A stretch of DNA of 64,000 nt from Candidatus Methanomethylophilaceae archaeon (GTDB taxonomy: Archaea > Thermoplasmatota > Thermoplasmata > Methanomassiliicoccales > Methanomethylophilaceae): the NCBI GenBank assembly GCA_017524805.1, contig JAFXUX010000033.1, forward strand, positions 62,001 to 126,000, in the 5' to 3' direction. The notes beneath the pieces are model-generated. The model saw nothing but the letters and a program-made list of their open reading frames with translations. It did not search any database and was not told where the DNA came from. The translations under genes and the position numbers were made by a program. Positions 21,513 through 64,000 of this stretch are shown one piece after another. Each line of letters begins with the position of its first letter. Position 1 is the first letter of the stretch.

Positions 21513-22529
21513 TCAAACCCCCAATCCCGGGAAATTGAGCCCGGATCTCTCATCGAGACCTAACATAAGATTCATGCACTGGACCGCCTGCCCAGATGCG
21601 CCTTTGACAAGATTGTCCACCACGCCGAAGGCGACGGCTTTTCCGCCCAGGACGCGGGCCGACACCTGCGCGTGGTTCGAAGCGACGACCGCGCGGATGG
21701 ACGGATCAGGAACGTAATGGACGAACGTCTCGCCGCCGTATTGCTTCCCGTAGATCGAATCGATCTCCTCCTGGGAGACGTCCTTCTTCAGATCGAAATA
21801 GCATGACGAAATTATCCCGCGAATTATCGGGACCAGATTCGGGACGAACGTTACCTTCGAATGCGAACCCGCGAAGCGATCCACTGCCATCTCTATCTCG
21901 GGCGTATGGCGATGCTTCCCTATGCTGTAAGGTATCACGGATTCACCGCATGTCGAATGGTGGGTGCGCTCCGTCGGCACCATTCCTGCCCCGGAAGTCC
22001 CGGATTTGGCGTCCACGACGACGTCATCGCCGACCACCCCCGATTTGAGCAGCGGGCCGCAAGCCAGTATTATGGATGTCGCATAACATCCGGGATTTGC
22101 AACCAGATCCGCCCCTTTGATTTCGTCGCGGAAGAATTCTGGCAGGCCATACACGGCTTTCTGAAGGTTTTCCACGTCAGTATGCTCATGCCCATACCAT
22201 TTCTGGTATGTCTCCACGTCATGGAGGCGATAGTCCCCTGAAAGGTCTATGGCTTTGATCCCGCGCTCCAGCAATGCTGGGACCTCCTTCATAGCCACGC
22301 CATGGGGCGTCGCGACGAACACGAGATCGAGATCCGAGGCCTCCGAGATGTTGGAGATGAACTCGAGGTCCAAGTATCCCTTGAGATAAGGATGCGAATC
22401 CTGCACTTTCTTACCCGCGTTCTGACGCGACGTCATCGCGGCTATTTCGACGTCCGGATGGACGGATAGGATGCGGGCAAGCTCTCCGCCTGCGTACCCC
22501 GTTCCCCCAATGATCCCTACTTTTGTCAT
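21513..22529 (-). CDS. argC: N-acetyl-gamma-glutamyl-phosphate reductase
   Basis: NADPH-dependent reduction of N-acetylglutamyl phosphate to the semialdehyde. 338 residues from the ATG at 22529 (MTKVGIIGGTGYAGGELARIL, the nucleotide-binding start). The catalytic cysteine is in LVANPGCYATSI; SGTSGAGMVPTERTHH and GKHRHTPEIEM follow. The frame stays open 77 codons upstream, but that part lacks family similarity. First gene of the minus-strand arginine operon; argJ follows after two bases. Confidence 0.95.
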   Translation of the reverse strand: MTKVGIIGGTGYAGGELARILSVHPDVEIAAMTSRQNAGKKVQDSHPYLKGYLDLEFISNISEASDLDLVFVATPHGVAMKEVPALLERGIKAIDLSGDYRLHDVETYQKWYGHEHTDVENLQKAVYGLPEFFRDEIKGADLVANPGCYATSIILACGPLLKSGVVGDDVVVDAKSGTSGAGMVPTERTHHSTCGESVIPYSIGKHRHTPEIEMAVDRFAGSHSKVTFVPNLVPIIRGIISSCYFDLKKDVSQEEIDSIYGKQYGGETFVHYVPDPSIRAVVASNHAQVSARVLGGKAVAFGVVDNLVKGASGQAVQCMNLMLGLDERSGLNFPGLGV

Positions 22530-22774: not shown

Positions 22775-24115
22775 ATGGAACGCATCAACAAATCCGTCAT
22801 CATATTTGGAGGCACAGTATCATTCATACTCAGCTGCTATTTGATGATCGAATACGTAGCCCTGATTTACGGATTCTGGACCCTCGTACCCGCCGCCATA
22901 GGCCAGATCATCCTGTTCGTCATCCTGGCCAGCGCATTTAAAAACATGGGCTATACGAAGTACCACAATACTTTCGTCACGTTCGACTACCGTACATATG
23001 TGGACTTCCTGAAGAATTTCGTCGTGAAATTCAAAGATTTCATAATCGAAGAAGGGGAAGAGCTGATGGATTGGGGATACATAGGAATCGGGATCATAAT
23101 CCTGATGCTGTTCCCCCTTCTGCTGTCAATCGTAGGCTTCGCCGCATTCCTCCTCTGTTTCGCGGCCTATTTCTTCCTGGTGATGGTGGTTTACATCGCG
23201 GCTCTCGCCTTGGCCAAAGCGTCGGAATCCGGCGGCTATGCGAAAAACACGGGGCGCTGCGTTTGCCCGACATGCGGAACCGTCTTCGCACGCCCGATAT
23301 ACGTGTGCTCCTGCGGCCATCGCTACCCTTCAGCTTCGACCATAGAGCTCCGCCCTTCGATCCACGGGTTGACAAAGACGAATTGCGAATACTGCGGCGC
23401 GAAACTCCCTGTCAGCGGCGATAGGCGCTTATTGGATGCGATCTGCCCGGATTGCGGCGGCAAGATATCGACCCAGGAAGGCCGCCCCTATCTGGTCACA
23501 TTGGCCGGTTCTTCCGGATCCGGGAAGACCGCCCTGGCTTTCTCCGCGATGAAAGCCTTGGAAAGCACCGGGAAATCGGAATACCCCTATGGGAATGCCT
23601 ATGGCCTCAGAACGCCGAAAACCTACAGCCCGCCTTACGTCATCAGCGTCGACGCCTCCAAGAAAAGAAAGCAATACCTCGCTCTTTTCGACATAAATGG
23701 GGCATATTTCAGCGACAGCGATGACGTAGGCCAGCAACCGCAGTACGGCCAGGAAAATGCCATAATCATAACGATAAACCCGCTCTCGCCGGATGCGACC
23801 TTGAAAGATGAGAAGGCGACGAACATTTTCTGGCAGAAATACCATTCAGTCTCGCAGACTTCCCTGTCCGATTCCATACATGTTCCGCTGCATGTGGTGG
23901 TCACCCACGGCGATTTGGAAGGGGATAAGGCCGATATCAAAGGATATCTTGAGTCTAAAGGGTATGGGCTGATCATAAAATCCCTTGAAAGCAACTTCCG
24001 CAGCGTCTCCTATCACATCTGCGATGCCAGAGACCCGAAAGAGGTCGCGAAAGTTTTCTCCGATGCGATTTCCGGCGGGAACAAAGCGTTATCCGGCGCA
24101 TTCCCGAAAATATGA
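22775..24115 (+). CDS. Membrane zinc-ribbon GTPase-like protein (paralogue 1)
   Basis: 446 residues. Four hydrophobic helices lie in the first 145 residues: two at about 7-53 and two at about 98-143. Two zinc ribbons follow (CVCPTCGTVFARPIYVCSCG; CEYCGAKLP..CPDCGG). The GTPase-like domain has a P-loop GSSGSGKT at about 244, a DxxG-like FDINGAYF at about 304 and a THGD at about 377 in place of NKxD. The start at 22775 aligns with paralogue 2; an in-frame ATG at 22742 lies upstream. It resembles the second domain of double-GTPase (DO-GTPase) families. It probably sits in the membrane with the nucleotide domain in the cytoplasm, and heads the GTPase/Hsp70 set. Confidence 0.8.
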   Translation: MERINKSVIIFGGTVSFILSCYLMIEYVALIYGFWTLVPAAIGQIILFVILASAFKNMGYTKYHNTFVTFDYRTYVDFLKNFVVKFKDFIIEEGEELMDWGYIGIGIIILMLFPLLLSIVGFAAFLLCFAAYFFLVMVVYIAALALAKASESGGYAKNTGRCVCPTCGTVFARPIYVCSCGHRYPSASTIELRPSIHGLTKTNCEYCGAKLPVSGDRRLLDAICPDCGGKISTQEGRPYLVTLAGSSGSGKTALAFSAMKALESTGKSEYPYGNAYGLRTPKTYSPPYVISVDASKKRKQYLALFDINGAYFSDSDDVGQQPQYGQENAIIITINPLSPDATLKDEKATNIFWQKYHSVSQTSLSDSIHVPLHVVVTHGDLEGDKADIKGYLESKGYGLIIKSLESNFRSVSYHICDARDPKEVAKVFSDAISGGNKALSGAFPKI

Positions 24116-24245
24116 TGGCATAACGGTCACGAAATTTCCGGATTCCGATAAGATATAACTATCAACAACGACATAACGGAACGAGTTCGTTGCGCCCGAA
24201 ACATGCGTACGAAACATCGGCAAATGTCGTCGCGGAGCTGGTCAA
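24116..24245 (+). promoter_or_regulatory. Spacer with TATA-like box before GTPase paralogue 2
   Basis: 130 bases. ATAAGATATAACTATC at about 24149-24164 is a TATA-like element, so paralogue 2 may have its own promoter. A short palindrome AACGAGTTCGTT (about 24180-24191) follows. Confidence 0.35.
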
Positions 24246-25577
24246 TTGGAATCGCTCAATAAAGCTGTGATAATACTGGGACATATTCTGGCGCTTATTA
24301 TCAGCGAATTTGTGATGTACTGCGTGGGGATCGTCAATACCGACCTTTACATCTCCATTCCCGTAGGAATAAGCATGATCGGCCTGGTGGTCGTATTGGG
24401 GATGTCCATGTACAAAATCGATTACAGCGAATTCCACAACACATTCGCCGTCTTCGATTATCACACCGTGATCAGGATGATCGTCAAAAGCGCCGAAGGC
24501 TTCGGAACTCTCATCGGCTTGGCGCTGACATTCGGCGTATACGGGATCGTCCTGATGATATTCCCGCTCATCCTGGGGATCATTGGGTTCGTCATCGCTC
24601 TGATCGTCTTCCTGATCTACTACTTCATTGTGATGATCATATTCGTCACGGTTCTGGGCTACTCGAAGATGAAGGAGAGGGCCGGTTACGCCAAAAACAC
24701 CCGCCGCTGCGTATGCCCGAGCTGCGGCGCCATATTCGAGCGCCCGATCTACGTCTGCTCTTGCGGCCAACGCTATCCCACGGCGAATGGCCTGGACCTC
24801 CGCCCATCGATCCACGGGATCAACCACACCCATTGCGAAGTGTGCGACGCAAAACTGCCTGTGACTGATCGCCACAATAAAAGACGCCTCCTCGATGCGG
24901 TATGCCCGGAATGCGACGCCATAATCAATGCCAAAGAAGCCAAGCCCTACATTCTGACCTTGGCCGGGCCGTCCAAATCCGGGAAGACTACCCTCGCTTT
25001 CTCCGCTATGTATGCGATAGAGAAGAGCGGAAAATACTCCTACCCATACAGTTCCTCTTACAGCGGAAGCACCCCCAAAACATACAGCCCGCCTTACGTG
25101 ATAGATGTGGACGTCTCCAAGAAGACGAACCGCCATCTCGTCATGTTCGACATCAACGGCTCATACTTCAGCAGCGACGAGAACGATTTCGGACAGCAGC
25201 CCCAATACGGGCAGGAAGACGCAATCTTCGTGACGATAGACGCCAGCGCCCAGGACGCCGCGGTCAAAGCCGAACTGGCCGTCAACGAATTCTGGCAGAA
25301 ATACCATTCGATATCGCAGACCTCTCTGACCAGCACGATCCGCGTCCCGCTTCACCTGGTGGTCACCCACAAAGATGCCATCGGAGACCCGGGAGACGTC
25401 AGGGGATATCTGGTATCCTCTGGCTTCGGGCAGCTGATCTCCATGCTGGACAACAGCTTCAGCAGCGTCTCATACCATATATGCGATGCAAGAGACACAA
25501 AAGAGGTCGCGAAAGTGTTCTTCGATGCGTTCGTCAGGCTGGACTCGGACGTGGCGAACATGTTCTACAAGGCGTGA
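24246..25577 (+). CDS. Membrane zinc-ribbon GTPase-like protein (paralogue 2)
   Basis: 443 residues, same architecture as the preceding gene and clearly homologous over its length. It has hydrophobic pairs at about 5-55 and 95-145, zinc ribbons CVCPSCGAIFERPIYVCSCG and CEVCDAKLP..CPECDA, P-loop GPSKSGKT (about 240), FDINGSYF (about 301) and THKD (about 373). The start codon is TTG, supported by GGAG eight bases upstream and by alignment with paralogue 1. The third G-motif has Asn-Gly instead of the common Ala-Gly (DxNG), shared with paralogue 1 and so probably functional. The tandem arrangement suggests a heteromeric or specialised membrane complex. Confidence 0.8.
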   Translation: MESLNKAVIILGHILALIISEFVMYCVGIVNTDLYISIPVGISMIGLVVVLGMSMYKIDYSEFHNTFAVFDYHTVIRMIVKSAEGFGTLIGLALTFGVYGIVLMIFPLILGIIGFVIALIVFLIYYFIVMIIFVTVLGYSKMKERAGYAKNTRRCVCPSCGAIFERPIYVCSCGQRYPTANGLDLRPSIHGINHTHCEVCDAKLPVTDRHNKRRLLDAVCPECDAIINAKEAKPYILTLAGPSKSGKTTLAFSAMYAIEKSGKYSYPYSSSYSGSTPKTYSPPYVIDVDVSKKTNRHLVMFDINGSYFSSDENDFGQQPQYGQEDAIFVTIDASAQDAAVKAELAVNEFWQKYHSISQTSLTSTIRVPLHLVVTHKDAIGDPGDVRGYLVSSGFGQLISMLDNSFSSVSYHICDARDTKEVAKVFFDAFVRLDSDVANMFYKA

Positions 25578-25643
25578 GGAAGGACATCGACATTTATGCG
25601 CAAGTGATTTGACTGCAAAACCCATTATAGATTACAGGATGCC

Positions 25644-26759
25644 GTGGTTCAATTGATCTGCTTTCATTGCTTCCAAGAAATCGACAAGGAACTGTACATT
25701 TGCAACAACATAAGATGCACCAGCCCCACCAAAGAGGTTGTCCCCAACATAAGCGGCGGCAAAAGGGTGTGCCCCACCTGCGGGAAAAAGGTGGGATTCC
25801 GCATATGCCCCAACTGCAAATGCCAAATACCTTTCGACCAGGAGAACCAGAAGAACATCTTCTACGCGATCGCCGGGGTCAGAGGATGCGGGAAAACCCA
25901 CTACATGACCGTCCTGATAGACAGGATGAAAGAGCTGTCCAACGAGTTCGAATGGAACATACAGGGCATAGGGGACACGGAAGAGATCTACAGAACCAAC
26001 TATTACAACCCGCTCTTCAAGAACCACACCACCCTGGAAGGTACGGACCCTCTGAGCATCAGGAAGGATTACGATGTACTTTCATACAGGCTGAAGCTGA
26101 AGAATGGCAAGACCATATACCTGCATTTCATCGACACCGCCGGAGAAGACGTCCGCGACATCAGAGGGACCTCCGCAATAGGCAATTACCTGTCTTACGC
26201 CCAGGGCCTCATATACATCATCGATCCGACCATATGCGACGGAGTATCCGATGTCGTCGGGAGCGGCCACGGCGCAGACGAAGACACCGATTACATCTCC
26301 ACTTTCAACAGCATCTGCCAGACCATCCGCAGCTTCAACAGGATCGGCGACAAGAAGAAGATCCCCATCCCGCTGGCGATAGTCATGGCCAAAGTGGACG
26401 TGCTCCTCCGCGAGCCAAAGAGCCAGGAGGAGATGAGCGCGCTTCTGGGGCCGGAATCGGCCATCAACAAACCCAGGGTGAAAGGGAGGTTCGACGAGGA
26501 GAACAGCTACGCCATCGACCAGGAGATCCGCGGATACATCGGAAAATACTCCAGCGGGCAGATCAATCAGGCCGCGGAGAGCGAATTCAAGGTCTCCCGC
26601 TTTTTCGGGGTCTCGGCGCTGGGCAAAGACCCGGAGGGAAAGAGGATCGACAAGATCGAGCCCCTGAGAGTGGAGGACCCCATCCTTTGGCTGATCTACG
26701 GCAAGAACACCAAGACCGACAAATTCCCCGATCTGCCCGACCTATTCCACAGGAGGTGA
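25644..26759 (+). CDS. Soluble zinc-ribbon GTPase of DO-GTPase2 type
   Basis: 371 residues, GTG start. The N-terminal 65 residues hold three Cys pairs (CFHCFQEIDKELYICNNIRC, CPTCGKK, CPNCKC). The GTPase domain then has a P-loop GVRGCGKTHYM at about 75, a canonical DTAGED at about 165, a long hydrophobic strand AQGLIYIIDP and an AKVD at about 251 as the base-specificity motif. This is the pattern I associate with the double-GTPase 2 family that pairs with GTPase-associated protein 1. There are no membrane helices. The next gene starts three bases after its stop behind AGGAGGTGA, so the two are tightly coupled. Confidence 0.75.
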   Translation: MVQLICFHCFQEIDKELYICNNIRCTSPTKEVVPNISGGKRVCPTCGKKVGFRICPNCKCQIPFDQENQKNIFYAIAGVRGCGKTHYMTVLIDRMKELSNEFEWNIQGIGDTEEIYRTNYYNPLFKNHTTLEGTDPLSIRKDYDVLSYRLKLKNGKTIYLHFIDTAGEDVRDIRGTSAIGNYLSYAQGLIYIIDPTICDGVSDVVGSGHGADEDTDYISTFNSICQTIRSFNRIGDKKKIPIPLAIVMAKVDVLLREPKSQEEMSALLGPESAINKPRVKGRFDEENSYAIDQEIRGYIGKYSSGQINQAAESEFKVSRFFGVSALGKDPEGKRIDKIEPLRVEDPILWLIYGKNTKTDKFPDLPDLFHRR

Positions 26760-26762
26760 ACC

Positions 26763-29207
26763 ATGCCGGAGCAGATCATTTACACCATAAACCGCGCGAT
26801 ACCAGGCCATCTCCAATCCGGCTACGGGATATACTCCGAGACTGAGGGCATCCCCGAGGGGGACCGCGCCGATGTCCTGGCAAGATTCTCGTCGTTCAAA
26901 CCGCCCATGCCCATAAGCGGACCGGATGATCCCAATCTGGAGCTCATACCCAAAGCCCTGGCGTTCGGGACGCTGAAATCCGGGAAGATGTGCGTCGCCC
27001 AGAAAACCTTCACCGGGTACATCTACGGGATGCCGAGCAGATACAACAATTACGTTTCGCACTCGTTCATCTGCGATGATCTGGAAGGCTACCCGATAGA
27101 GTACATGTCCTCCCCGTCCTTCTGCACCGGGATCGACTTCGACGGCATGGACGTCACATCGGCTCCCGCCAGCCTGGACAGCTCCCCGCCGGCTCTGGAA
27201 AGCGGGCGCGCGATATGCCTGGAATCGACGGAAAAGTTCGTGGAATCCAGGGACAAAGGGTTCCTGAGGCTTCTGACATATAGGATACTGGACGCATGCG
27301 ACAGGAAAGACAAGGTGCTGCTCTGCGCCGATTGGAAGGAGACCCCATTCTGGATAGCCGCGGTCACCATGCTGTTCCCCAAAAAAATCGCGGACAGAAT
27401 GACGTTCGTTACCTATGTGCATCCGGACAACGCGGCGGTATGCGAAGAAACGATAATGGGCCTCTACGAGAGGCGCAGAGGCCAGATCCGCGAGGGCATA
27501 ATGACCTCCGATGACGAGGCCTTCGACCCGTCGGAGACGTTTGACGGCCCGTTCAACGAGTACATAGACGGGGCGTATGGCGGGCTGAGGGAGGGATTCT
27601 TCGGATTCCTGGCGAAAGCCGAAGCGGAAACCCCCGGCAAGGACATCATAGGCCTGTATGACCTGTACTGCATTGCTGAGAAAGGCATGAAGCTGTCAGG
27701 GGACAGCCTTGACCGCGCCTGGGAAGCGCTGAAGAAATACGGCGCCAAACTTCCCGCGGAATGCTCTGCGGCCGCCGTGGAATGCAGGATGGAAGTCTTG
27801 GACGATGCCGACGTGGATTTCATCCAGAACGATCTTTGCCGCTCCCTGAAGGACGAGGAATGCGTGAGGAAGATCAGGATTGCCGTGGCGAAAAGCCGCC
27901 TCCAAGGCATGGACGGCCTCAGACCTTCCGAGCTGATGGGATTTTACGAGAGGAACAGGGGATCGATCGCGGATATGGCGTCGTATCGCCTCGGAGACTG
28001 TATGGGGTCGCTTCCCGGCGCCTGCCTGGCCGCCAAATACTGGTCGGACAGCCGCTCCAAGGATTCCTTTGAAGCGGCATCGGCGGCGCTGAGCCAGGCC
28101 GGGCCAGAAGCGGCGGAATTCATCCTTTCGGATCGCCCCTTGGCCATGGCCGCTTTGGGTTCGGACAGCCCGGCGAGCGAGAGTCTGAAGCGCTCTCTCC
28201 TCGAGGGAATGCTTTCTTCGAAGACCAGCTTGGATGAGGCTGCGCGCCTTGCGGAGGTGATAGGATACGATGCCGACCTCCAGGATGCTCTGGACGACCG
28301 CATGGCGGAAGGCCCATACGCCGGAGCCTATGTCAAAGGCAGATGCGAGAGCCTCATCGCCGAAGGGAAGACGAAAGAAGCGGAATCGATGTATCTGTGC
28401 CATTGCGAATCGGCCAGCACGGAAGAGATGCTGGATGCCCTGGAATTCCTGGGGGCTGCCGGCAAACCTCTGGAGAAAGCGTGCATCCCCACAATAGCCA
28501 AGAGATTCGAGAGCATGCCCGGGGACTTCCTGTCCGAAAAGAAGATGCGCATCGCCCATATGCTGGCGGAAATTGATGAGACCCTGGAGGGATCCCTCCG
28601 CACCGCCCTTTATCTGACCGCGGACAGCATAAGCCTCGGAACCCCGGCGGATCTGGATGGATACGATTCCTTGAGTCCGGAGGAGAAGAGATCATTCTGC
28701 CGCAGAGCCCTCCGCCGCGGGGTCAGGATGGACGAGGAATGGTTCGAATCCAGGCTCGCCCCGTTCGTCGGACACGAAAGCTCCGAATTCTACGAAGCGG
28801 CGGCCGACATAGTCCGCCCCACGATCATGGACTCCCCGGAAGTCCTCGCGGCATACATCGTGGCCGTAGGGAAAACCGGGATCGACGTTTCCGACCTCAC
28901 GTACAAGAGCATACCTTGGCGCGGGAGGCCTTCGAGACTCGAGAGAGTGGTCGAGAAGATAGGCGGAAGCGAAGAGGACCTGGAGACATATTACGAGCAC
29001 TCCGAGAGGCCCCCCGAAGAGAAGGGAGGATTCCTCGGCGGATGGGGCAGCAAAGAATCCGACAGCCAGACCAAAGAGGAGAAGAGCAAGCGCTCCGGCG
29101 GCAAGGATCCGGGATCCGACAGATCAGACAGCCGCAAAGAGGAAGGCCAGCGCGAGGAAGGCGGAGGGAACATCCTCAAAGGCCTGAAAGGCTTGTTCAA
29201 AAAATGA
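26763..29207 (+). CDS. GTPase-associated protein 1 (GAP1)-like large protein
   Basis: 814 residues. The N-terminus (IIYTINRAIPGHLQSGYGIY, SEYMS..., SRYNNYVSHSFICDD) resembles the GAP1 N-terminal domain type 2; residues about 150-250 (RLLTYRILDACDRKDKVLLC, WIAAVTMLFPKKIADRMTFV) resemble the GAP1 middle domain. Residues 270-740 are mostly helical repeats with many Ala/Glu-rich helices, and the last 70 are charged and probably disordered. GAP1 proteins are partners of GTPases in bacterial NTP-dependent conflict systems; here the partner gene lies directly upstream. Its stop overlaps the Hsp70-vWA start (ATGA). The assignment rests on motif memory, not a search. Confidence 0.65.
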   Translation: MPEQIIYTINRAIPGHLQSGYGIYSETEGIPEGDRADVLARFSSFKPPMPISGPDDPNLELIPKALAFGTLKSGKMCVAQKTFTGYIYGMPSRYNNYVSHSFICDDLEGYPIEYMSSPSFCTGIDFDGMDVTSAPASLDSSPPALESGRAICLESTEKFVESRDKGFLRLLTYRILDACDRKDKVLLCADWKETPFWIAAVTMLFPKKIADRMTFVTYVHPDNAAVCEETIMGLYERRRGQIREGIMTSDDEAFDPSETFDGPFNEYIDGAYGGLREGFFGFLAKAEAETPGKDIIGLYDLYCIAEKGMKLSGDSLDRAWEALKKYGAKLPAECSAAAVECRMEVLDDADVDFIQNDLCRSLKDEECVRKIRIAVAKSRLQGMDGLRPSELMGFYERNRGSIADMASYRLGDCMGSLPGACLAAKYWSDSRSKDSFEAASAALSQAGPEAAEFILSDRPLAMAALGSDSPASESLKRSLLEGMLSSKTSLDEAARLAEVIGYDADLQDALDDRMAEGPYAGAYVKGRCESLIAEGKTKEAESMYLCHCESASTEEMLDALEFLGAAGKPLEKACIPTIAKRFESMPGDFLSEKKMRIAHMLAEIDETLEGSLRTALYLTADSISLGTPADLDGYDSLSPEEKRSFCRRALRRGVRMDEEWFESRLAPFVGHESSEFYEAAADIVRPTIMDSPEVLAAYIVAVGKTGIDVSDLTYKSIPWRGRPSRLERVVEKIGGSEEDLETYYEHSERPPEEKGGFLGGWGSKESDSQTKEEKSKRSGGKDPGSDRSDSRKEEGQREEGGGNILKGLKGLFKK

Positions 29208-31261
29208 CGGTGGACGACATGGCCGGGATAAAAGTTGGGATAGATTTGGGGACCACGTACTCAGCGATAGCTTACGTGGACGACAGCGGAACGCCCAGGA
29301 TGATCGAGACCGACTGGGGCGAGGACACCACCCCTTCGGTGGTCGCCATAACCGATGACGGGTACATAGTCGGACACGAGGCCAAGGAGTTCCAAGCCAG
29401 CGGAACCGAAAACGCCTTCTCGACGTTCAAGAGGTTCATGGGAAGCAGCCACCGCTATTACGCCGGCGACAGGGAATTCAGCCCGGAAGAGCTGTCCAGC
29501 ATGCTCCTGAAACGCATGAAGGAGGTGGCCGAAAAAGTATCCGGGAAGGAGATAGAGGGCGCGGTGATCACCTGCCCCGCGTACTTCAACGAATTCCAGA
29601 GGAAAGCTACCAAAAAAGCCGGGGAAGACGCCGGCCTGAAGGTCTTGGACCTGGTGAACGAGCCTACGGCGGCCTCCGTCTATTACGGATTCAAAAAAGG
29701 CGCCAACGGCACGCTGATGACCTTCGACCTCGGCGGAGGGACTTTCGACATCACCATACTGGTTATCGCGGACGGGAACATCACCGTCAAAGCCACCAAA
29801 GGGGATTCCGCACTGGGCGGGAAGAACTGGGACTCCGAGCTTTGCGACATCGTCTCCGCCAAATTCCAGGAGGAGACCGGAGACAGCTTCGAGAACGACA
29901 AGGAGTTCATGTGCAAGATGATCGTCGACTCGGAGAAGATGAAAAAGGAGCTCTCGTCGAGGAACGACGCCAAGATGAGGATAAACTACGGCGGCAGCGC
30001 GGTCACCATCTCCGTCAGCAGAGATGAGTTCGAAGAAGCCACATCCTATCTCGTAGACAAGACGATCAGCATCTGCAGAGACCTCCTCGCCGAGATGGGC
30101 ATGAAATGGAGCGACATCGACCACGTGCTTCTGGTCGGAGGCTCCACCCGCATGCCGGCCGTCCGCTCTGCCATCAAAAACGAGAGCAAAACGGACGTCA
30201 TCATCCATGAGGACACCGACCTGGCCGTCGCCAAAGGGGCAGCTCTGCTTGCGAACGCGCAGGAAGGCAAGATAAGGATACACAAGAAAGAGCAGGGCAT
30301 GGGCGTCAGGACCGTCAACATGAGCTTCAAGGACGTGACCCCGTTCGGCCTCGGAACTTTGGTCACCGATCCCGGGTTCACAAAATACCTCAACAAGATA
30401 ATGATCGCCCGCAACTCCGCGATCCCGGCCAAAGGCCGGCGCACTGTCAAGATACAGCCCGGGAACTATACCACGAAGCTCGACATATACACTATCCAGG
30501 GCGAGAGCGAGAACCCCTTGGACGTGGGCAACAAAGTGCTGTACCTGACCGTCGCAAAAGAGATAGAGAACGACGGGGACGGCGTGGAGATAGATATCGA
30601 CTACGAATACGACCGCAGCGGCATGGTTAAAGTCACGGCCTATCAGGGCGAACGTCTCCTCAAAATGGAGACGGGGGTAGTCCCGGACAACTGCGCTTGG
30701 ATGGGCAAGCCCCCTGTGGCCGAGAAGATCGCCGGAGGAAAGAAGTACATCATCCTGACGATTGACCTGTCCGGAAGCATGAGCGGCAATCCTTTGAAGG
30801 AAGCCATCAACGAGATGTGCAAGTTCGCCAAGATGATCAAGGACGCGGAGTTCGCCCTGGTAGCGTTCGCCGACTCCTCCAAAGAGGTCTCCGGATTCAC
30901 TACCCCCGGCAACATACTGTCTAAGATCGAGTCTCTGAACAGCGTCAACGTCGGCGGAGGTACCAGCTGCAACCCCCTGAACAAACAGGTATATTCCCTG
31001 GCCAAAAGCGTCGCAGGAAAAGGGAAAGTGTTCGTCGTGACGCTGACGGACGGCCAATGGTATGGCGACAATACGGTCGAGAGCAGCATAAAGAGCCTGA
31101 AAGAGCTTAAAGTCGAATGCATAGGCATCGGGTTCGGGGACGTGGACAGAACCTTCATCCGCAAGATATCATCCTCCGACAAATCCGCTCTAAAAGCCAG
31201 CTTCGGAGGCCTGGGAAGAACGCTGTCGTCGATAGCTTCAGATATCAGCGGAAGCAAATGA
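29204..31261 (+). CDS. Hsp70 family protein fused to a von Willebrand factor A domain
   Basis: 685 residues from the ATG overlapping the GAP1 stop. Residues 1-390 are an Hsp70 ATPase domain: VGIDLGTTYSAIAYVD, TFDLGGGTFDITILV, ALGGKNWDSELCD, LLVGGSTRMPAVRSA. Residues about 390-510 form a beta-rich part like the Hsp70 substrate domain without the helical lid. Residues about 515-685 are a vWA domain with a complete MIDAS site: DLSGSMSG, then the Thr in GGGTSCNP and the Asp in TLTDGQW. The fusion suggests metal-dependent binding coupled to an ATP-driven chaperone. It is central to the GTPase/Hsp70 set. Confidence 0.9.
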   Translation: MTVDDMAGIKVGIDLGTTYSAIAYVDDSGTPRMIETDWGEDTTPSVVAITDDGYIVGHEAKEFQASGTENAFSTFKRFMGSSHRYYAGDREFSPEELSSMLLKRMKEVAEKVSGKEIEGAVITCPAYFNEFQRKATKKAGEDAGLKVLDLVNEPTAASVYYGFKKGANGTLMTFDLGGGTFDITILVIADGNITVKATKGDSALGGKNWDSELCDIVSAKFQEETGDSFENDKEFMCKMIVDSEKMKKELSSRNDAKMRINYGGSAVTISVSRDEFEEATSYLVDKTISICRDLLAEMGMKWSDIDHVLLVGGSTRMPAVRSAIKNESKTDVIIHEDTDLAVAKGAALLANAQEGKIRIHKKEQGMGVRTVNMSFKDVTPFGLGTLVTDPGFTKYLNKIMIARNSAIPAKGRRTVKIQPGNYTTKLDIYTIQGESENPLDVGNKVLYLTVAKEIENDGDGVEIDIDYEYDRSGMVKVTAYQGERLLKMETGVVPDNCAWMGKPPVAEKIAGGKKYIILTIDLSGSMSGNPLKEAINEMCKFAKMIKDAEFALVAFADSSKEVSGFTTPGNILSKIESLNSVNVGGGTSCNPLNKQVYSLAKSVAGKGKVFVVTLTDGQWYGDNTVESSIKSLKELKVECIGIGFGDVDRTFIRKISSSDKSALKASFGGLGRTLSSIASDISGSK

Positions 31262-31291
31262 TGCGGACACAGGAAGCGAAGAGGACGGACG

Positions 31292-34165
31292 ATGACTGAC
31301 CCTTACAAAGCCTTGGGACTCAACCCTCTGAACACATACGACAAGCCTCAGGTGCAGCAGAGGATAAACGCTCTGAAGAGGGCCAACGAAATCAAATACA
31401 GCCCGGAGGAGCTTGCCAGATTCGAGGCGGAGATAACTTCCGGGATGGCCGCGGACGAATCCCTGGCCGCAATGAAGAAAGATTTCTCCAGGGTTCTGAG
31501 GAGCTTCATCTTCGTGCGCACGGACGGCAAGCAGGTGATCTTGGACAAGAGCGCCGACGCCATCTGCAAGAAGATGAAGAACAAAGGATGGAACATCGAG
31601 AAGGATGACATCGACGATCTTACCAAAACCCCCATCGAGAAATGCAAGGACTACGCCCTGAACGCGAAGCTCGTCGGAGCCCTGGGGGCGATGGAATGCA
31701 AGCCGTTCGTGGAATGGACCAACGACGCCGTGGACACGGCCAACGGCTACGGAGGAAACGTAGATAAGCTGGGCCCGAAGTTCGATGCGAGCGAGGTCAG
31801 GGCCATCTACGCCGCCCTCAACAAAATCTTCGACGTGCTGATGGAGCAGCGCAAATGCATGGACCTCGTCAAAGCGTTCAGGAAAGTGAAGCCCTGCGTT
31901 GACGACGACAAGCTGCTGGAAGACCTGAAAACATGGTCCGTCCTGTGGGAGATCGTCGAGGACATAAGGGCCTCATCCTCGGACCGCATAGAGAGGAGCA
32001 CGATAGAGGCCCTCTTCGAAAGCAACGGATTCGCCCGTTCCGGAGCTGACACCGACAAGTCCCTGAAAGCGCTCGAGCAGTACTGCATGAGCATGGGGAT
32101 AATCGCGAACCTGTCGAAGGACGACGATTTCGATCTCAGATGCGGCTCGTGCGGCGCCTACATGCCCAAAGACAACGAGAAATGCACCGTCTGCGGGTCG
32201 GATCTGTACTACCACTGCAAATGCGGGGCCACGACGCCTTTTTCTGAGGGGAAATGCAAGCGCTGCGGAATGGGGATAGCCCTCGTCAGCGACATCAAGG
32301 AAACGCAGAAGAAGGTCGAAAAACTGACGGCATCCTACGGTCTGGCCGAGCTCAGGCGCCTGCTCAATGACCTCGGGGAGCACAAGAAAAACTTGGATCC
32401 TCTGGTCTTGGCCAGAGCCGAAGCTGTTCTGAGGGACAACGACGCCATCGTTTCCAAGTTGGATTCGCTGATCTCAGCATCGAAAATAAACGAGGCCCTG
32501 GAAGCCTCGAAGAGATACCTCGCCGGGAAGCCAAACTCCCCAGACCTCGAACAGGTGAGGCTGCGCAAGAGCCACTGCGAATCCACGATGGCCGAGGTCA
32601 GAAGGCGCCTCCAGGACGCCGGGACCCTTTCGGGGAAGGACGCCGCCAAAGAATACGCCGCGATAATGCGCCTCTGCGCCGACTGCCCCGAAGCCAACGC
32701 GCGCTTGGAAGGCCTCAGGCCGCAGAAGCCTTCCTCGGTGATGCTGTCGGAAAGCATGGACGGGTTCATCAGGATAAGGATGGCCCAAGCCGACGGGAAA
32801 CCGGCCGGGTATGAGATCGTCAAGAACGCCGGCCGCGCCCCTAGGAACCGCGAGGACGGAGAGACGATAAAGACCGCCGCCTCGGAATACGTGGACCGCG
32901 ACATCGTCTTCGGGAAGGGCTACTACTACGCCGTATACTCCGAGAGGGAAGGGATATCATCATCCGAGCCTACGTACGCCGGACCGTTCGCCGTGTTCTC
33001 CAACGTGAGGAACCTCCGCGCCTCTTCGGAAACGAAGGGGATACGCCTGAGATTCGATGTCCCCAAAGGATGCAGCAGAGTCTGGATGTGCAGATCCGAA
33101 GGCTCCGTACCGGCTTTCCTCGGCATGGGACGCATAGATCTTGGGACCGAGGGCGGATATCTGGACGTGGAATCCTCCGGCGAAGGCATGTCATACGGTT
33201 ACCTTCTGGTGGCCGAATATTCCGACGGGCGCTCTACGCCGGCGTTCTCGAAAGGCGTCTCGGTAGTATGCACCTATGAGAAGGTCCCGGAACCGCCCGG
33301 CAATTTCAAGGTGCAGCCGAAAGGGAACGGAACTTTCTCGGCCGCATGGAACCAATGCAGAGAGGAATGCAGGCTGTATTCATCGCCGAAGCGCATCGGC
33401 GGAAACAAAACGGCCACCGCTGATTACGTCAGAAAGAACATGTCGCCCCTGAGCTTCGAGACAACGGGCCAGAATTCGGCTTCGTTCTCGCTCCCGCCCG
33501 GCGCCGTGCTGTACGTCTACCCCGTGGTCATATCGGGTTCCAACGCCGCCATAGGCGCCGAAAAGCTCGTGCACAACGCGATCCCGCCGGACAACGTCAG
33601 ATGCGTGTACAGCGGAGGGAGATACGTCGTCACATTGGACTGGCCGAAAGGCGCCTTGGCGATGAGGGCATGCTATTCCGGGGACGGATTCCCGTCGGAC
33701 CCCCACGAAGGGTTCTCTGTAAGGAAAACCAAACAGGAGTACGATGCCCAGAAAAAGATCGAGATACCGTCCAAGGATTCGGAGATATTCGTCGCCGTCT
33801 TCTCCGAATATCCGGAGAGCACATTCTCCGAGGGGCGCAGCATCAGCTGCTCCAAGCTGAAAGAAAAAACCGCGATAAGATACAGCATCACAAGCGGGCT
33901 GTTCGGAACGAAGATAGAGTTCTCGACCGACCCCACATTGAGCGCCCTGCCTGAGATGGCGCTCCGCGTATCCGACTTCGGATTCCCGCGCCCGGACGAC
34001 GAGAAGATTGCCACCGTGAGCAAAGTCGATCTGAACAAAGGAAGGGGCACTTTCGTCCTCTCCAAAGAAGCGGCCAAAGCGTATAGGAGCTCCAAGAGAT
34101 CGGGGCTATTCTTCGCGAACTTCGAGGACTATGAGATTTACACGCTGGAACACCCCAGGAGCTGA
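31292..34165 (+). CDS. Large protein with J-like start, zinc ribbons and fibronectin-like repeats
   Basis: 957 residues of unknown function. It begins DPYKALGLNPLNTYDKPQVQ, reminiscent of the start of a J-domain, but has no HPD motif. Residues about 20-270 are helical. Two or three zinc ribbons lie at about 283-329 (CGSCGAYMPKDNEKCTVCG, CKCGATTPFSEGKCKRCG). A coiled or TPR-like helical part spans 335-470, and from about 480 to 870 there are beta-rich units resembling fibronectin type III (for example YYYAVYSEREGISSSEPTYAG, GYLLVAEYSDGRSTPAFSKG). The ATG follows GAGG by seven bases. Its place between two Hsp70 genes suggests a co-chaperone or substrate-binding scaffold. Confidence 0.65.
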   Translation: MTDPYKALGLNPLNTYDKPQVQQRINALKRANEIKYSPEELARFEAEITSGMAADESLAAMKKDFSRVLRSFIFVRTDGKQVILDKSADAICKKMKNKGWNIEKDDIDDLTKTPIEKCKDYALNAKLVGALGAMECKPFVEWTNDAVDTANGYGGNVDKLGPKFDASEVRAIYAALNKIFDVLMEQRKCMDLVKAFRKVKPCVDDDKLLEDLKTWSVLWEIVEDIRASSSDRIERSTIEALFESNGFARSGADTDKSLKALEQYCMSMGIIANLSKDDDFDLRCGSCGAYMPKDNEKCTVCGSDLYYHCKCGATTPFSEGKCKRCGMGIALVSDIKETQKKVEKLTASYGLAELRRLLNDLGEHKKNLDPLVLARAEAVLRDNDAIVSKLDSLISASKINEALEASKRYLAGKPNSPDLEQVRLRKSHCESTMAEVRRRLQDAGTLSGKDAAKEYAAIMRLCADCPEANARLEGLRPQKPSSVMLSESMDGFIRIRMAQADGKPAGYEIVKNAGRAPRNREDGETIKTAASEYVDRDIVFGKGYYYAVYSEREGISSSEPTYAGPFAVFSNVRNLRASSETKGIRLRFDVPKGCSRVWMCRSEGSVPAFLGMGRIDLGTEGGYLDVESSGEGMSYGYLLVAEYSDGRSTPAFSKGVSVVCTYEKVPEPPGNFKVQPKGNGTFSAAWNQCREECRLYSSPKRIGGNKTATADYVRKNMSPLSFETTGQNSASFSLPPGAVLYVYPVVISGSNAAIGAEKLVHNAIPPDNVRCVYSGGRYVVTLDWPKGALAMRACYSGDGFPSDPHEGFSVRKTKQEYDAQKKIEIPSKDSEIFVAVFSEYPESTFSEGRSISCSKLKEKTAIRYSITSGLFGTKIEFSTDPTLSALPEMALRVSDFGFPRPDDEKIATVSKVDLNKGRGTFVLSKEAAKAYRSSKRSGLFFANFEDYEIYTLEHPRS

Positions 34166-34170
34166 TTGAT

Positions 34171-34881
34171 ATGGAAGAGACAGAAAGAACGGACGAGATA
34201 TGCGCGGATGCCGGAGAGCAGATCCCCGGACCTTCCGCGGAGGCGACCGAGCCGGAACCTGAAGAGACGGAACCGACGGCGGAAACTTCCGGGCCCGAAG
34301 AGCCATCGGAAGAGCCGGAAAAAGAAGACTTCGAACCTGAAGAGACGCCCGAAGCGGAGATCCCATCGATAGATTCCCGTCTCGACGGCATATCTTACCA
34401 ATTGGCCGAAATCTGCGACAGAATCTCGGTTATGGATGTGCTGCTGGAATCCCGCACCATACCACAATCGGTGTTCCAGCACTTCAACGGGACCATCTCC
34501 GGGCAGCTGGATAAGGTCAAGATGAGCCTTACCGCGGACATCCTGAAGGAGATCATCAAATTCAGGGAGGATATGGCAAGGTTCCTGGCCAACGCCCACG
34601 AGAAGAAAGATGAGCTTACTGTGGACTCTTTGCTGAACTCCTTCGACAACTTCGATTACGGGCTCCTGAACATCCTCGAATGCCGCGGGGTTTCCTGCAC
34701 CCGCGCGGAGATCGGAACGGCTTTCGACAGCAAAACCCAGAAGATCGTGCCCCCGGCCGTCCCGACCGGCGACAGGGAACTTGACAAAACCATCCAATCG
34801 ATCAAAACGGACTGCTATGAGCTGGAGGGCAAGGTGATCTATCCCTCCCAGGTCAAGGTTTTTAAGTACAACGGAGAATGA
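34171..34881 (+). CDS. GrpE-like nucleotide exchange factor candidate
   Basis: 236 residues. The first 68 are very acidic and proline-rich and probably disordered. A helical stretch (about 68-150, with ADILKEIIKFREDMARFLAN) is followed by a compact end that finishes KVIYPSQVKVFKYNGE. The order acidic tail, long helix, small beta domain with a final valine-rich strand is that of GrpE, which recharges Hsp70. It lies directly between two Hsp70-related genes, which supports the reading. Sequence identity to classical GrpE is low and the canonical signature is not obvious, so this is an inference. Confidence 0.55.
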   Translation: MEETERTDEICADAGEQIPGPSAEATEPEPEETEPTAETSGPEEPSEEPEKEDFEPEETPEAEIPSIDSRLDGISYQLAEICDRISVMDVLLESRTIPQSVFQHFNGTISGQLDKVKMSLTADILKEIIKFREDMARFLANAHEKKDELTVDSLLNSFDNFDYGLLNILECRGVSCTRAEIGTAFDSKTQKIVPPAVPTGDRELDKTIQSIKTDCYELEGKVIYPSQVKVFKYNGE

Positions 34882-34887
34882 TAAGAT

Positions 34888-36411
34888 ATGTCAGACCTCA
34901 AAATAGGAATCGACCTCGGTACCACATACTCATGCATCGCGGTTATCGACCCCGCCACGGGGCTCCCGACCATCGTGAAGAACTTCGAGGAAGAGGAGAC
35001 CACCCCCTCCGTGGTCCTCTACGACACGGAAAACAACGAAGTCATCGTCGGAAAAGATGCCAAAGCCAATGCAGCGATCTATCCGGACACCTGCTTCGAC
35101 TCGATCAAAAGGCACATGGGAGAGGCGGGATTCCGCATCTACGTCGGCGACAAGGAATACTATCCCCAGGACCTCTCGGCCGAGATCCTCAAAAAACTCA
35201 TCAGAGATTTCAAGCAGTTCTATCCGGAGTACGACATGAGCAGCGTGACCATCACCTGCCCCGCATACTTCGACGAGAACCAGAAGAAAGCCACCAAGCA
35301 GGCCGGCGAGATCGCCGGTTTCAAGAACATCAACATCGTCGAGGAACCCATCGCCGCGGCCATTTCTTACGGAGCGAAGAGCGACAAAAACCAGACCGTG
35401 TTCGTGTACGACCTTGGAGGAGGAACGTTCGACATCACCATCATCAAGATAGAGAACGGCAACTACTCCGTGTTCTGCACCGGAGGAGACTCCGGCCTGG
35501 GAGGAAAAGATTGGGACAGAGAGCTCGAAGACCACATAATAGAGAAGATCGCGGAGGCCGAGCCTTCCCTCGATGTGGGCGAGATCAAGAGCGGCGAGAA
35601 CTACCCCGGGATCGCCGCCAAAGTCGAGGACATCAAGAAGCAGCTGTCCACCAGGACATCCGTCAAGAACTACTTCACCGTCGGCGCCAACAACATAGCC
35701 GTCGAAGTGACCCGCGAGGAGTTCGAATCGTGGACGGAAGCCCTTCTGGACAAGACCAGAGGATACATAGACACCCTGATGGCCGAGAAGAACCTCTCCT
35801 TCGACGACATAGACAAGTTCCTTCTGGTCGGAGGGTCCACCAAGATGCCTCAGGTCCCCGCGATGCTCAACAAATTCTACCCCCAGCTCGCAGGGAAGAT
35901 CGAGAGCCACGACCCCAACCTCGCGGTCGCCAAAGGCGCGGCGCTGTACGAGCAGATGGTCACCGACGTCAAGACCGGCGGCATCAGGAAGTTCACCAGG
36001 GTCATGCCCCATACCTACGGCATCATCGCCTTCGACGACGAGAAACAGAGGGACATGGTCTGCAACATCGTCTACCGCAACGAGCAGCTCCCGCTGGAAG
36101 GGGCCAGAGAATTCTCCCCGTCCTCCAACGGCCAGACCCAGGCCCGCATCCAGGTGTGCAAGAACGACGCTCTGGAAGAGGACGGAGACCAGGAGGTCGA
36201 CCTGTGCCCCAAGATCGGAGAATTCGTATTCGATCTCGCCAGCGACAGCAGGATGAACGAGGAGATCATTGTGAAGATCCGCGGGAACGAGAGGGCTGAG
36301 CTTGAAGCTGAATGCATCTACCGCGGCGTCTCCAAGATCTACTCCCTGCAGTTCACCGGCGACCAGATCATGTCCGAAGAAGAGATCAAAAGGAAGAGGC
36401 TCGGAGCCTGA
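34888..36411 (+). CDS. Short Hsp70 (DnaK-like) chaperone without C-terminal lid
   Basis: 507 residues. The ATPase domain is intact: KIGIDLGTTYSCIAVID, VYDLGGGTFDITIIKI, GLGGKDWDRELED, FLLVGGSTKMPQVPAML, DPNLAVAKGAALYEQM. After residue 375 only a beta-type substrate domain remains; the alpha-helical lid and C-terminal tail of DnaK (about 610-640 residues) are missing. It begins six bases after the GrpE-like gene, and a perfect GC hairpin follows its stop. It is similar to, but clearly diverged from, the Hsp70 half of the 29204-31261 protein, and is probably specialised to this gene set rather than the general DnaK. Confidence 0.88.
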   Translation: MSDLKIGIDLGTTYSCIAVIDPATGLPTIVKNFEEEETTPSVVLYDTENNEVIVGKDAKANAAIYPDTCFDSIKRHMGEAGFRIYVGDKEYYPQDLSAEILKKLIRDFKQFYPEYDMSSVTITCPAYFDENQKKATKQAGEIAGFKNINIVEEPIAAAISYGAKSDKNQTVFVYDLGGGTFDITIIKIENGNYSVFCTGGDSGLGGKDWDRELEDHIIEKIAEAEPSLDVGEIKSGENYPGIAAKVEDIKKQLSTRTSVKNYFTVGANNIAVEVTREEFESWTEALLDKTRGYIDTLMAEKNLSFDDIDKFLLVGGSTKMPQVPAMLNKFYPQLAGKIESHDPNLAVAKGAALYEQMVTDVKTGGIRKFTRVMPHTYGIIAFDDEKQRDMVCNIVYRNEQLPLEGAREFSPSSNGQTQARIQVCKNDALEEDGDQEVDLCPKIGEFVFDLASDSRMNEEIIVKIRGNERAELEAECIYRGVSKIYSLQFTGDQIMSEEEIKRKRLGA

Positions 36412-37182: not shown

Positions 37183-37193
37183 CGAGCATCACC

Positions 37194-43567: not shown

Positions 43568-43790
43568 CACAAATATGGCCTAATGCCCAACAGGAAACGA
43601 TCGAGACCGCGCTCAACCAACTACAATCCATTATGGTGGGTTCGAGCGCCCTCGATCTCCGGCAGATTCAAGATCTTACGCGTTGGACAACGTATATCCA
43701 GTCTTTCTGAACATAATCGCCCATTCAGAGCGGGTGGGAGGCCAGCCGACTACGATCAATGATGCGCTAGGGCACCAACATACAGCATGA
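43540..43790 (+). pseudogene. Possible frameshifted gene fragment
   Basis: From 43540 one frame reads MRHNGDPNLTQIWPNAQQET, IETALNQLQSIMVGSSALDL and ends at a TGA at 43708. From 43704 another frame continues FLNIIAHSERVGGQPTTIND and ends at 43790. Together they could be one coding sequence broken by a frameshift, or two chance frames. The fragment overlaps the end of the secreted-protein gene. It fills most of the 306-base gap before argG; no homologue is recognised. Confidence 0.25.
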
Positions 43791-43873
43791 ACCAGACATG
43801 GACGAACCTACCCTCGACCACTTCCGGTCCGATGGTCATATATCGAAAGAAACTCTCTCCCAGAGCGATAATC

Positions 43874-45082
43874 ATGGCAGAGAAAACCAAAGACAAAGTG
43901 GTCCTCGCGTATTCCGGAGGCCTCGACACCTCAGTCGCCATCCATTGGCTCCAGGAGCAATACGACCTCGACGTGATAGCCATCGCTATCAACGTCGGCC
44001 AGCCCCCCAGCAAGGACGACATCGTCGCCCGCGCCCTCAGAAACGGAGCCATAAAATCCGATTTCATAGACGCCACCGAGGAGTTCGTCTCGGATTACGT
44101 CTGGCCTTCGCTCAAAGCCAACGCCCTCTATCAGAACGTGTATCCTCTGAGCACCTCCATCGCCAGACCCCTCATAGCCAAGAAACTCGTCGAAGTGGCC
44201 AACAGAGAGGGGGCCAAGTACATCGCCCACGGATGCACCGCCAAAGGGAACGACCAGGTCAGATTCGACGTCGGAATAGTCTCCCAGAACCCCGACCTGA
44301 AGATCATCGCCCCCATGAGAGAATGGGTCACCACCAGAGAGAAGGAAATCGAATACGCCAAAGAGCACGGGATCGAAATCATCGTCAAGAAAGAGAGCCC
44401 GTACTCCAGAGACGAGAACCTTTGGGGAAGTTCCTGCGAATGCGGAATCCTCGAAGATCCCTGGGCCGAACCCCCCGCAGACGTCTGGGAGAACACCGTC
44501 GACCCCGAGAAAGCGCCTGACGAACCCCAATACATAGAGATCGGATTCGAGAATGGTATCCCGACCCGCCTCAACGGCAAGAAGGTCGAGGGCGTGAAGC
44601 TGATCGAGAAGCTCAACAAAACCGCCGGAAAGCACGGCGTAGGCAGAATCGACCACGTCGAGGACCGTCTGGTCGGCATCAAGAGCCGCGAGACCTACGA
44701 ATGCCCCGCCGCGGTCACGCTCATAACTGCCCACAGAGCACTCGAAGCCATGACCCTCCCCAGAGACACCATCGAATACAAGCGCGGTATCGAGCAGAAA
44801 TACTGCCAGCTGGTGTATGATGGGCTCTGGTTCGGCGGCCTCAGAGAGCCGATCCAGGCGTTCATCGACAAGACCCAGGAATACGTCACCGGAACCGTCA
44901 GAGTCAAGCTGTACAAAGGGACCGCGACCGTTGTCGGAAGAAAATCCCCGTACTCCATGTACGACACCGGCCTCAGCACCTACGCCGAAGGCGACAGCTT
45001 CGACCACAGATCCGCGACCGGATTCATCTACGTCTGGGGTCTCCCCGGAAGAACCGCCGCGAAAGCCCACGGGAAGAAGTGA
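43874..45082 (+). CDS. argG: Argininosuccinate synthase
   Basis: Joins citrulline and aspartate using ATP. 402 residues from the ATG at 43874 (MAEKTKDKVVLAYSGGLDTS with the PP-loop SGGLDTS). Further motifs: HGCTAKGNDQVRFDV, APMREWVTTREKEIEYA, YSRDENLWGSSCECGILEDP, KKVEGVKLIEKLN, GRIDHVEDRLVGIKSRETYE. The frame is open 29 codons upstream, but that extension is not part of the family. The argH start overlaps the stop (GTGA), so the two are coupled. The codon use is that of a well expressed gene. Confidence 0.96.
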   Translation: MAEKTKDKVVLAYSGGLDTSVAIHWLQEQYDLDVIAIAINVGQPPSKDDIVARALRNGAIKSDFIDATEEFVSDYVWPSLKANALYQNVYPLSTSIARPLIAKKLVEVANREGAKYIAHGCTAKGNDQVRFDVGIVSQNPDLKIIAPMREWVTTREKEIEYAKEHGIEIIVKKESPYSRDENLWGSSCECGILEDPWAEPPADVWENTVDPEKAPDEPQYIEIGFENGIPTRLNGKKVEGVKLIEKLNKTAGKHGVGRIDHVEDRLVGIKSRETYECPAAVTLITAHRALEAMTLPRDTIEYKRGIEQKYCQLVYDGLWFGGLREPIQAFIDKTQEYVTGTVRVKLYKGTATVVGRKSPYSMYDTGLSTYAEGDSFDHRSATGFIYVWGLPGRTAAKAHGKK

Positions 45083-62590: not shown

Positions 62591-64000
62591 ATGAGCGAAA
62601 CGGACGAAACAGGCGAGTCAAACCCTGGGCCGATAAAGCGGCTCCGCGTGATGGGAACCGCGAACAAGACAATCATAACGGCTATCTACGTCCCCGCTCT
62701 TGTCTACGCCGGATTGGCGCTGTTCCTTACGATCATGACGTTCGGAAGCGAACCTGCGACCGTCATCCCCGGGATCGCCAAACTGTCTGGACCTTACAGC
62801 GGATTGCTTTCGGAGCAGCCCTGGGGCTTATACGTGGCAATAATAGGATTCGCGCTTTCCGCCGCAGGAATGTTCACGTCGGAGCCCTTGGACGTCCTCG
62901 GAGACCAGAATCGCGTCCAATACCTGTGGACCCACCGTCCGTATGCGCCCCTCAGATGCGTAGCCGCCCCTTGGGGCCTCATCAGCTCGGCATGGAAAAG
63001 GAACAAATTCTATGCGGTCGCCCCGATCATAGCCCTGCCCCTTTATGCCGTCTGGTCCGCGATCATCTCCGTCGCGCTGATAATCCCCTTCGCCATAGCT
63101 TGGGCGGTCGTATCCCATTCCATATCCAAAGCCAGGAAAAAAGAAAGGCTGGAATACAGAACCTCCACCAGATTCGCCGTCTGCCCCAGCTGCAGAAGGA
63201 AATTCTCCCGCCCCTTGGTCGTAAGCGACGGCGAAATGATAGACTATCCGATCCCCGGCAAATACGGCATAAAATGCCAGACTACAAACAAAGGCCGCAA
63301 GATTCCCTGCACCCATGGCACAAGGGGGATGCTTGAGACCAAATGCCCGCATTGCCTCCAGCTCATCCCAACCCGCGAATCATACCCCGTCTGCATATCC
63401 CTGGCGGGTGCGTCTGGCGCCGGGAAAACCACGCTGATGCTTGCGTCCGCCGAGATGATAATGGCTGCGGCCAAAAAGATAGACATAACATCTGAGACCC
63501 CGACCGCCGGCCTATCCCCCGATATCATCGCATGCAGGGATTCGGCGCATCCCACCGAGCCTGGGGCCGTCAATTCCGAATGCCTGTTCCTCAAACCCCT
63601 ATCTGGGACCGGCTCCGAAATAGTGTACAGCGACATATCTGGCTCGGAATTCCTGGCGAGAAAAGACAAAGATCTGTTCGAAGAGTACTACAAGTACACC
63701 GACGGAATCGTGTTTGTCTTCGACCCCAGGTTCGCGAGAACCAATATGGCGGACCTCATAGATGCGTTCAACTCGTTCTACGGGATGTTCAGCACCATCA
63801 GAGGGATCGCTCCCGGAGAGCCCGCTCCGATCAGATTCGCCATGGTGGCCTCGAAGAAAGACATCAGCGGCATGGAGAATTCGGATGTCAGGGCGTACCT
63901 CCACAAGAACGGAGGGGACGCATTGATAAGGACCGTCGAAACCCTGTTCGAAGACGTAAGATATTTCTCGGAATGCGGAGTAGGAAACAGGCCGAAGACC
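62591..64000 (+). CDS. Membrane zinc-ribbon GTPase-like protein, 3' end missing
   Basis: 470 codons are open to the right edge. The start is MSETDETGESNPGPIKRLRV. Hydrophobic segments lie at about 28-50 (IITAIYVPALVYAGLALFLT), 85-100 and 150-185 (a pair). Two Cys clusters follow (CPSCRRKFSRP; CPHCLQLIP). The GTPase-like domain has P-loop GASGAGKTT at about 280, SDISGSEF as the DxxG-type motif at about 345 and SKKD at about 425. This is the architecture of the two membrane proteins at 22775-25577, but more diverged and placed 37 kb away. What follows outside the window would show whether it heads a second GTPase/GAP1 set. Confidence 0.75.
   Translation, partial: MSETDETGESNPGPIKRLRVMGTANKTIITAIYVPALVYAGLALFLTIMTFGSEPATVIPGIAKLSGPYSGLLSEQPWGLYVAIIGFALSAAGMFTSEPLDVLGDQNRVQYLWTHRPYAPLRCVAAPWGLISSAWKRNKFYAVAPIIALPLYAVWSAIISVALIIPFAIAWAVVSHSISKARKKERLEYRTSTRFAVCPSCRRKFSRPLVVSDGEMIDYPIPGKYGIKCQTTNKGRKIPCTHGTRGMLETKCPHCLQLIPTRESYPVCISLAGASGAGKTTLMLASAEMIMAAAKKIDITSETPTAGLSPDIIACRDSAHPTEPGAVNSECLFLKPLSGTGSEIVYSDISGSEFLARKDKDLFEEYYKYTDGIVFVFDPRFARTNMADLIDAFNSFYGMFSTIRGIAPGEPAPIRFAMVASKKDISGMENSDVRAYLHKNGGDALIRTVETLFEDVRYFSECGVGNRPKT

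Follow-up and report, generated by a model that had tools for sequence, protein, structure and literature searches.

An archaeal GTPase, GAP1 and Hsp70 gene cassette belongs to the HSP70 theme of GAP1-N2 systems and has a GAP1-less relative in the same genome

Eight consecutive genes at 22775-36411 of the window (the whole stretch of DNA analysed, 64,000 nucleotides from a Candidatus Methanomethylophilaceae archaeon) form a GAP1-N2 DO-GTPase system in an archaeon, one that belongs to the HSP70 theme of these systems. This theme is described by Kaur et al. 2020 (eLife e52696, PMC7159879), whose main text reports that approximately 14% of GAP1-N2 neighbourhoods carry HSP70 and GrpE, that a subset of the theme possesses a second HSP70 without a peptide-binding domain, and that the theme includes an FNIII protein with a DnaJ or TPR fusion; a few archaea are reported there for the GTPase-centric systems taken together, and the authors propose conflict and thresholding roles for the family. 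The sequence-only reading of the locus had offered it as a candidate undescribed system, a label that has to be withdrawn because the HSP70/GrpE theme was already described in that text. What is new here is the GAP1-less relative, the insertion sites, the specialisation of the two Hsp70s, and the loss of the HPD motif. A literature search found no experiment on any member of the HSP70 theme. A conflict role for the cassette is plausible but unproven, and the explanation that we favour, at a probability of about one in two, is that a membrane-anchored GTPase timer gates the FNIII-directed loading of an Hsp70-vWA protein onto a foreign or misassembled target.

All eight ORFs (g1 to g8) are correctly read and lie on the plus strand. 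The distances between them, from g1 to g8, are 130, 66, 3, -4, 30, 5, and 6 bp, with an ATGA overlap joining g4 to g5, and each gene ends in TGA; the co-directional, tightly spaced arrangement first described is therefore confirmed. The set exceeds what one might expect by chance, since it is syntenic in a relative (G084) and recurs in rearranged form in five more archaea and two Clostridia. The relatives named here are Methanomethylophilaceae MAGs, mostly from ruminants, and many of the compared genomes are fragmentary. The cassette contains no recognised effector, and comparison with the PADLOC defence models gave no convincing match (best E=0.0067). Its GC content is 0.56 versus 0.53-0.54 in the flanks, an uninformative difference, and an argument for horizontal transfer from base composition was dropped.

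The first three genes encode zinc-ribbon GTPases. The soluble g3 (25644..26759, +; 371 aa) matches Pfam DO-GTPase2 above the curated cut-off (E=9e-7), is supported by alignment, and possesses the CxxC pairs of zinc ribbons. The scores of g2 (24246..25577, +; 443 aa, with a TTG start) and g1 (22775..24115, +; 446 aa) fall below that cut-off (E=1e-4 and E=0.2, respectively), g1 being placed by its 53% identity to g2 and by alignment; the DO-GTPase assignment proposed earlier thus stands for g3, and the two membrane proteins read, by their weak scores, as DO-GTPase-like. Hydrophobic segments at the N-termini of g1 and g2 are consistent with approximately four transmembrane helices, as the proposed membrane anchoring would have it, and none were found in g3-g8. 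The nucleotide-binding motifs differ between the two kinds: g1 has the P-loop GSSGSGKT, a G3 (DINGAY) without the DTAGE-type Glu, and the G4 THGD, and g2 has GPSKSGKT, DINGSY, and THKD, whereas g3 has GVRGCGKT, DTAGED (including the Walker B Glu of the family), and AKVD. Across the alignments, the DTAGE-type G3 is kept in most of the soluble GTPases and is missing from the membrane GTPases. One could thus picture an asymmetric GTPase pair, in which g1 and g2, without the Walker B Glu, would be the anchor and receptor half, and g3, which retains it, the hydrolysing half. Membrane GTPases related to g1 and g2 also adjoin GAP1 in Clostridia. A PDB profile search with the soluble GTPase and the J-FNIII protein (g6) returned nothing past weak matches.

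A third membrane zinc-ribbon DO-GTPase-like gene (62591..64000, +; 498 aa) extends past the end of the window. It may work with the GAP1-less core locus discussed below, since related membrane GTPases adjoin that locus in other genera. Next to it are two very large, mutually similar ORFs (54024-58097 and 58290-62540, -; 1357 and 1416 aa), the second with repeated Ig-like segments that look BIG2-type by eye; both are likely surface proteins.

The fourth gene (g4, 26763..29207, +) encodes GAP1, as was originally assigned: GAP1-N2 (E=6e-11) and GAP1-M (E=1e-7) both match the same protein above cut-off, and an alignment and an AlphaFold2 model were also used, though the N-terminal domains are poorly modelled. 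These domains are followed by an all-helical C-terminal array and a basic LKGLFKK tail. The structure matches of the array are generic solenoids, none below E=0.001, and we therefore give it no functional reading. GAP1 may read the state of the GTPase pair. Searches for its relatives in plasmids and viral contigs found none.

Three of the remaining genes encode Hsp70s and their exchange factor. The product of g5 (29204..31261, +) has an Hsp70 nucleotide-binding domain (NBD) and beta substrate-binding domain (SBD-beta), and a vWA domain takes the position of the helical lid (Pfam HSP70 E=2e-105, VWA E=1.6e-12; alignment), that of g7 (34171..34881, +) is a GrpE-like factor whose long N-terminal region is acidic (Pfam GrpE E=3e-10; alignment), and that of g8 (34888..36411, +) is a short Hsp70 of 507 aa (Pfam HSP70 E=1.5e-88; alignment). 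The helical lid is missing from both Hsp70s; g8 has intact NBD motifs and still possesses an SBD-beta-like region. The fusion, the GrpE-like factor, and the lidless Hsp70 had all been correctly recognised from the sequence.

The two Hsp70s are specialised. Asp393 of the interdomain linker is important in DnaK. Its equivalent, equated by alignment, is present in 16/16 Hsp70-vWA proteins and in 0/16 short Hsp70s, that is, the g5 type keeps the linker Asp and the g8 type, where the linker reads FTRVMP, has lost it. In the vWA domain, DxSxS and the TDG Asp are found in all 16 Hsp70-vWA proteins, and the MIDAS Thr in 14, with Asn in the other two. In a tree with DnaK as the outgroup, the Hsp70-vWA proteins form one clade (100/99), and a second clade (99/95) unites the short Hsp70s of these systems; both include archaeal and bacterial copies, which indicates that the two-Hsp70 set predates the archaeal loci. 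One might suspect, given the HSP70 and GrpE domains, that a general Hsp70 system has simply been duplicated and that its neighbours are there by chance. The tree and the synteny refute this idea: both Hsp70 types lie outside DnaK (100/100), the same set recurs in bacteria, and canonical DnaK, GrpE, and DnaJ are encoded separately elsewhere in the same genome.

The sixth gene (g6, 31292..34165, +) encodes a protein composed of a J-like domain, a helical region, a double zinc ribbon, a helical segment, and an FNIII array. Pfam recognises the zinc ribbons only. In the AlphaFold2 model (pLDDT 83), four helices form the N-terminal segment, the middle is helical, and the FNIII array, which is long, matches fibronectin repeats (E=1e-13); no transmembrane segment or signal peptide was seen. 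That the N-terminus is a J-like domain is supported by an hhalign probability of 93.6 against a small alignment of three J domains, by DNAJB8 and DNAJB9 among the top (all weak) PDB matches, and by the order of helices in the model, which together uphold the J-like, zinc-ribbon, and fibronectin-like description given earlier. The archaeal proteins of this type do not reach the Pfam DnaJ threshold, and the HPD motif is absent from all 15 archaeal sequences aligned and from both bacterial homologues. The cassette is therefore not a canonical DnaK-DnaJ-GrpE trio, and, for want of this motif, the earlier claim of a complete private Hsp70 machine was wrong or overstated. It resembles that trio in its Hsp70 NBD and SBD-beta, GrpE-like factor, and J-like domain, and differs in lacking the lid, carrying a vWA instead, having lost HPD, and having a second Hsp70 that is uncoupled at the linker. 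A search of a viral fold library with g6 gave generic FNIII tail proteins and was uninformative. In two Clostridial clusters (L212 9836-14861 and L213 4016-12469), a short Hsp70 adjoins J-like/TPR proteins whose J domain has no HPD (Pfam DnaJ 3e-9 for that of L213), and a neighbouring protein in one of the two resembles a kinase; these are possibly related systems.

The same genome has a paralogous locus on another contig (C9), with genes for a Sel1 protein, Hsp70-vWA, J-FNIII, zinc-ribbon DO-GTPase, GrpE, and short Hsp70, and with neither GAP1 nor an adjacent membrane GTPase. Every genome of the genus (31/31) has this core form, as do most genomes in four other genera belonging to the family; it was found nowhere else among 390 sampled genomes of the phylum. 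The 20 core loci read share one gene order, apart from an unrecognised GrpE in one genus and cuts at contig ends, and a membrane DO-GTPase adjoins the core in several genera. Fixed in this way, the core form resembles a housekeeping locus. GAP1-N2, on the other hand, was found in only 7/31 congeners, plus one weak match.

Such conservation argues for an alternative in which the system controls the quality of the envelope or of membrane proteins: envelope stress would be sensed by the membrane GTPases, and these would switch an Hsp70 of their own that holds damaged membrane or secreted proteins or extracts them, with the core locus as the housekeeping copy and the GAP1 cassette as a specialised accessory. 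The order-conserved core in all 31 congeners and four more genera, its linked membrane DO-GTPase in several genera, and the PspF-associated operons of gammaproteobacteria, which tie the DO-GTPase family to membrane stress (PMC11237479), all point this way. We nevertheless consider it rather unlikely, as the GAP1 version is patchy, occupies two sites, and evolves faster, and the FNIII arrays and GAP1 come from lineages with conflict-type neighbourhoods.

The two sites were identified by comparing GAP1-positive genomes. argC (21513..22529, -) and argG (43787..45082, +) border the cassette in the window genome; they are adjacent in nine congeners, where the site is empty, and the cassette lies between them in two genomes, that of the window and G084. 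In the remaining five, it sits beside a gene that reads, from its sequence, as ribosomal protein uS15, which gives two integration sites. Synteny and a patchy GAP1 version, both foreseen as support for a defence role, were thus found, whereas the stretches read hold no obvious defence island adjoining either site. In G084, nothing but the cassette separates argC from argG; the window has further genes at 36565-43567, perhaps from another insertion, namely those for an ABC transporter ATPase and a GntR regulator and five ORFs that match no Pfam family.

Between the window and G084, GAP1, GrpE, and the membrane GTPase have 74-78% amino acid identity and dN/dS of 0.15-0.20, compared with 94-99% and 0.01-0.04 for the flanking arg genes. 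The testable cassette genes (dN/dS 0.07-0.20) are under purifying selection and evolve faster than the arg genes; g1 of G084 is excluded from this comparison because of an in-frame TAG. We also considered separate, recent imports from bacteria as the origin of the two archaeal GAP1 cassette types, and rejected this, on thin bacterial sampling, because the GTPases and Hsp70-vWA proteins of both types form one archaeal clade.

In-frame TAG codons, with no other stop, interrupt otherwise open core J-FNIII, GAP1, and g1 genes of relatives (L094 5453-8425, aa 680; L091 4006-6978, aa 679; L104 7630-10011, aa 139; L102 9670-12018, aa 139; L105 3089-4444, aa 239), and their positions match in two genome pairs. 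Since PylS matches above cut-off are present in G000, G080, G084, and G092, TAG may be read as pyrrolysine.

Bacterial counterparts were sought in one class, the Clostridia. Full-length Hsp70-vWA fusions occur at least twice among 391 genomes (663 and 613 bits); among the matches listed, the other Clostridial Hsp70s end by position ~565 of 674. All eight part types are present in the two genomes concerned (G931 and G884), in clusters that bring Hsp70-vWA together with GrpE, short Hsp70, J-FNIII, zinc-ribbon DO-GTPase, GAP1, and membrane GTPase, so the co-occurrence of homologues holds; G884 matches GAP1 weakly (GAP1-M 0.0015, below cut-off) and has transposase-like ORFs inside its cluster. As far as the main text of Kaur et al. 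goes, its HSP70 theme shares with the cassette the zinc-ribbon DO-GTPases (including transmembrane copies), GAP1-N2/M, HSP70, GrpE, a second HSP70 without the peptide-binding domain, and an FNIII protein with a DnaJ-like fusion. The cassette differs in its archaeal host, the J-like domain without HPD, the GAP1-less relative fixed in five archaeal genera, and the fusion of vWA to one Hsp70, which is absent from that main text.

A Clostridiaceae locus, putatively of the tubulin theme, also clusters an FNIII C-terminal protein, zinc-ribbon DO-GTPase, GAP1, and membrane GTPase. GAP1-N2 was found in 20/226 genomes of the surrounding order, and almost all of the larger GAP1-N2 stretches read encode vWA in a gene of its own. 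These loci differ from the cassette: the stretches read contain neither Hsp70 nor GrpE, the vWA is separate, and most genomes have two GAP1 genes. The MoxR-vWA ternary systems likewise couple an NTPase chaperone to a vWA, proposed to be the client or threshold module, though in the cassette the NTPases are Hsp70 and GTPases rather than a MoxR AAA+, and there is no VMAP. This coupling, along with the conservation of the core within genera, would suit a dedicated assembly chaperone for one cellular complex (cf. RavA-ViaA and further pairs of an NTPase and a vWA), acting in neither stress nor defence. We find that quite improbable, as the core has no conserved client gene beside it except the Sel1-repeat gene, and the GAP1 version is duplicate and mobile.

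In the conflict explanation that we favour, we infer the interactions, switch direction, target, and defence role as follows. With the GTPase pair at the membrane and its state read by GAP1, the cytosolic FNIII array of g6 would recognise the target, probably a foreign or misassembled assembly, and its J-like domain, barred from the HPD route by the missing motif, would dock the Hsp70-vWA protein. The target could then be clamped at the membrane by ATP-driven closure and by MIDAS-type ligand binding of the vWA in the lid position; the GrpE-like factor would reset the cycle, and the linker-uncoupled g8 may act as a second nucleotide switch or a co-chaperone. The output would be containment of the target and not a toxin. 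We counted in favour the domain matches, Clostridial counterparts, linker-Asp split, vWA motifs, DTAGE split, patchy accessory GAP1 version, two sites, faster divergence under constraint, and the conflict proposal of Kaur et al., and, against, the core fixation, lack of an effector, PADLOC null result, absence of GAP1 from viral contigs and plasmids, weak DO-GTPase scores of g1 and g2, and lack of published experiments on this theme in the literature searched.

More broadly, we tentatively propose, while thinking it somewhat more likely wrong than right, that archaea hold a GTPase-Hsp70 module in two states, a GAP1-less form, domesticated and fixed for housekeeping or first-line surveillance in five genera of gut methanogens, and a mobile GAP1 form gained repeatedly, and that its Hsp70 machine is new in kind (a vWA for the lid, an HPD-less J/FNIII receptor for the J-protein, and a membrane GTPase pair gating substrate loading). 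If right, GTPase-GAP1-Hsp70 systems in complete form would extend to gut methanogens, and the vWA as an Hsp70 lid with an HPD-less J-like partner would represent a different mode of the Hsp70 cycle. Natural versions with and without GAP1 would coexist in one genome, making the role of GAP1, and the question of defence versus housekeeping, directly testable.
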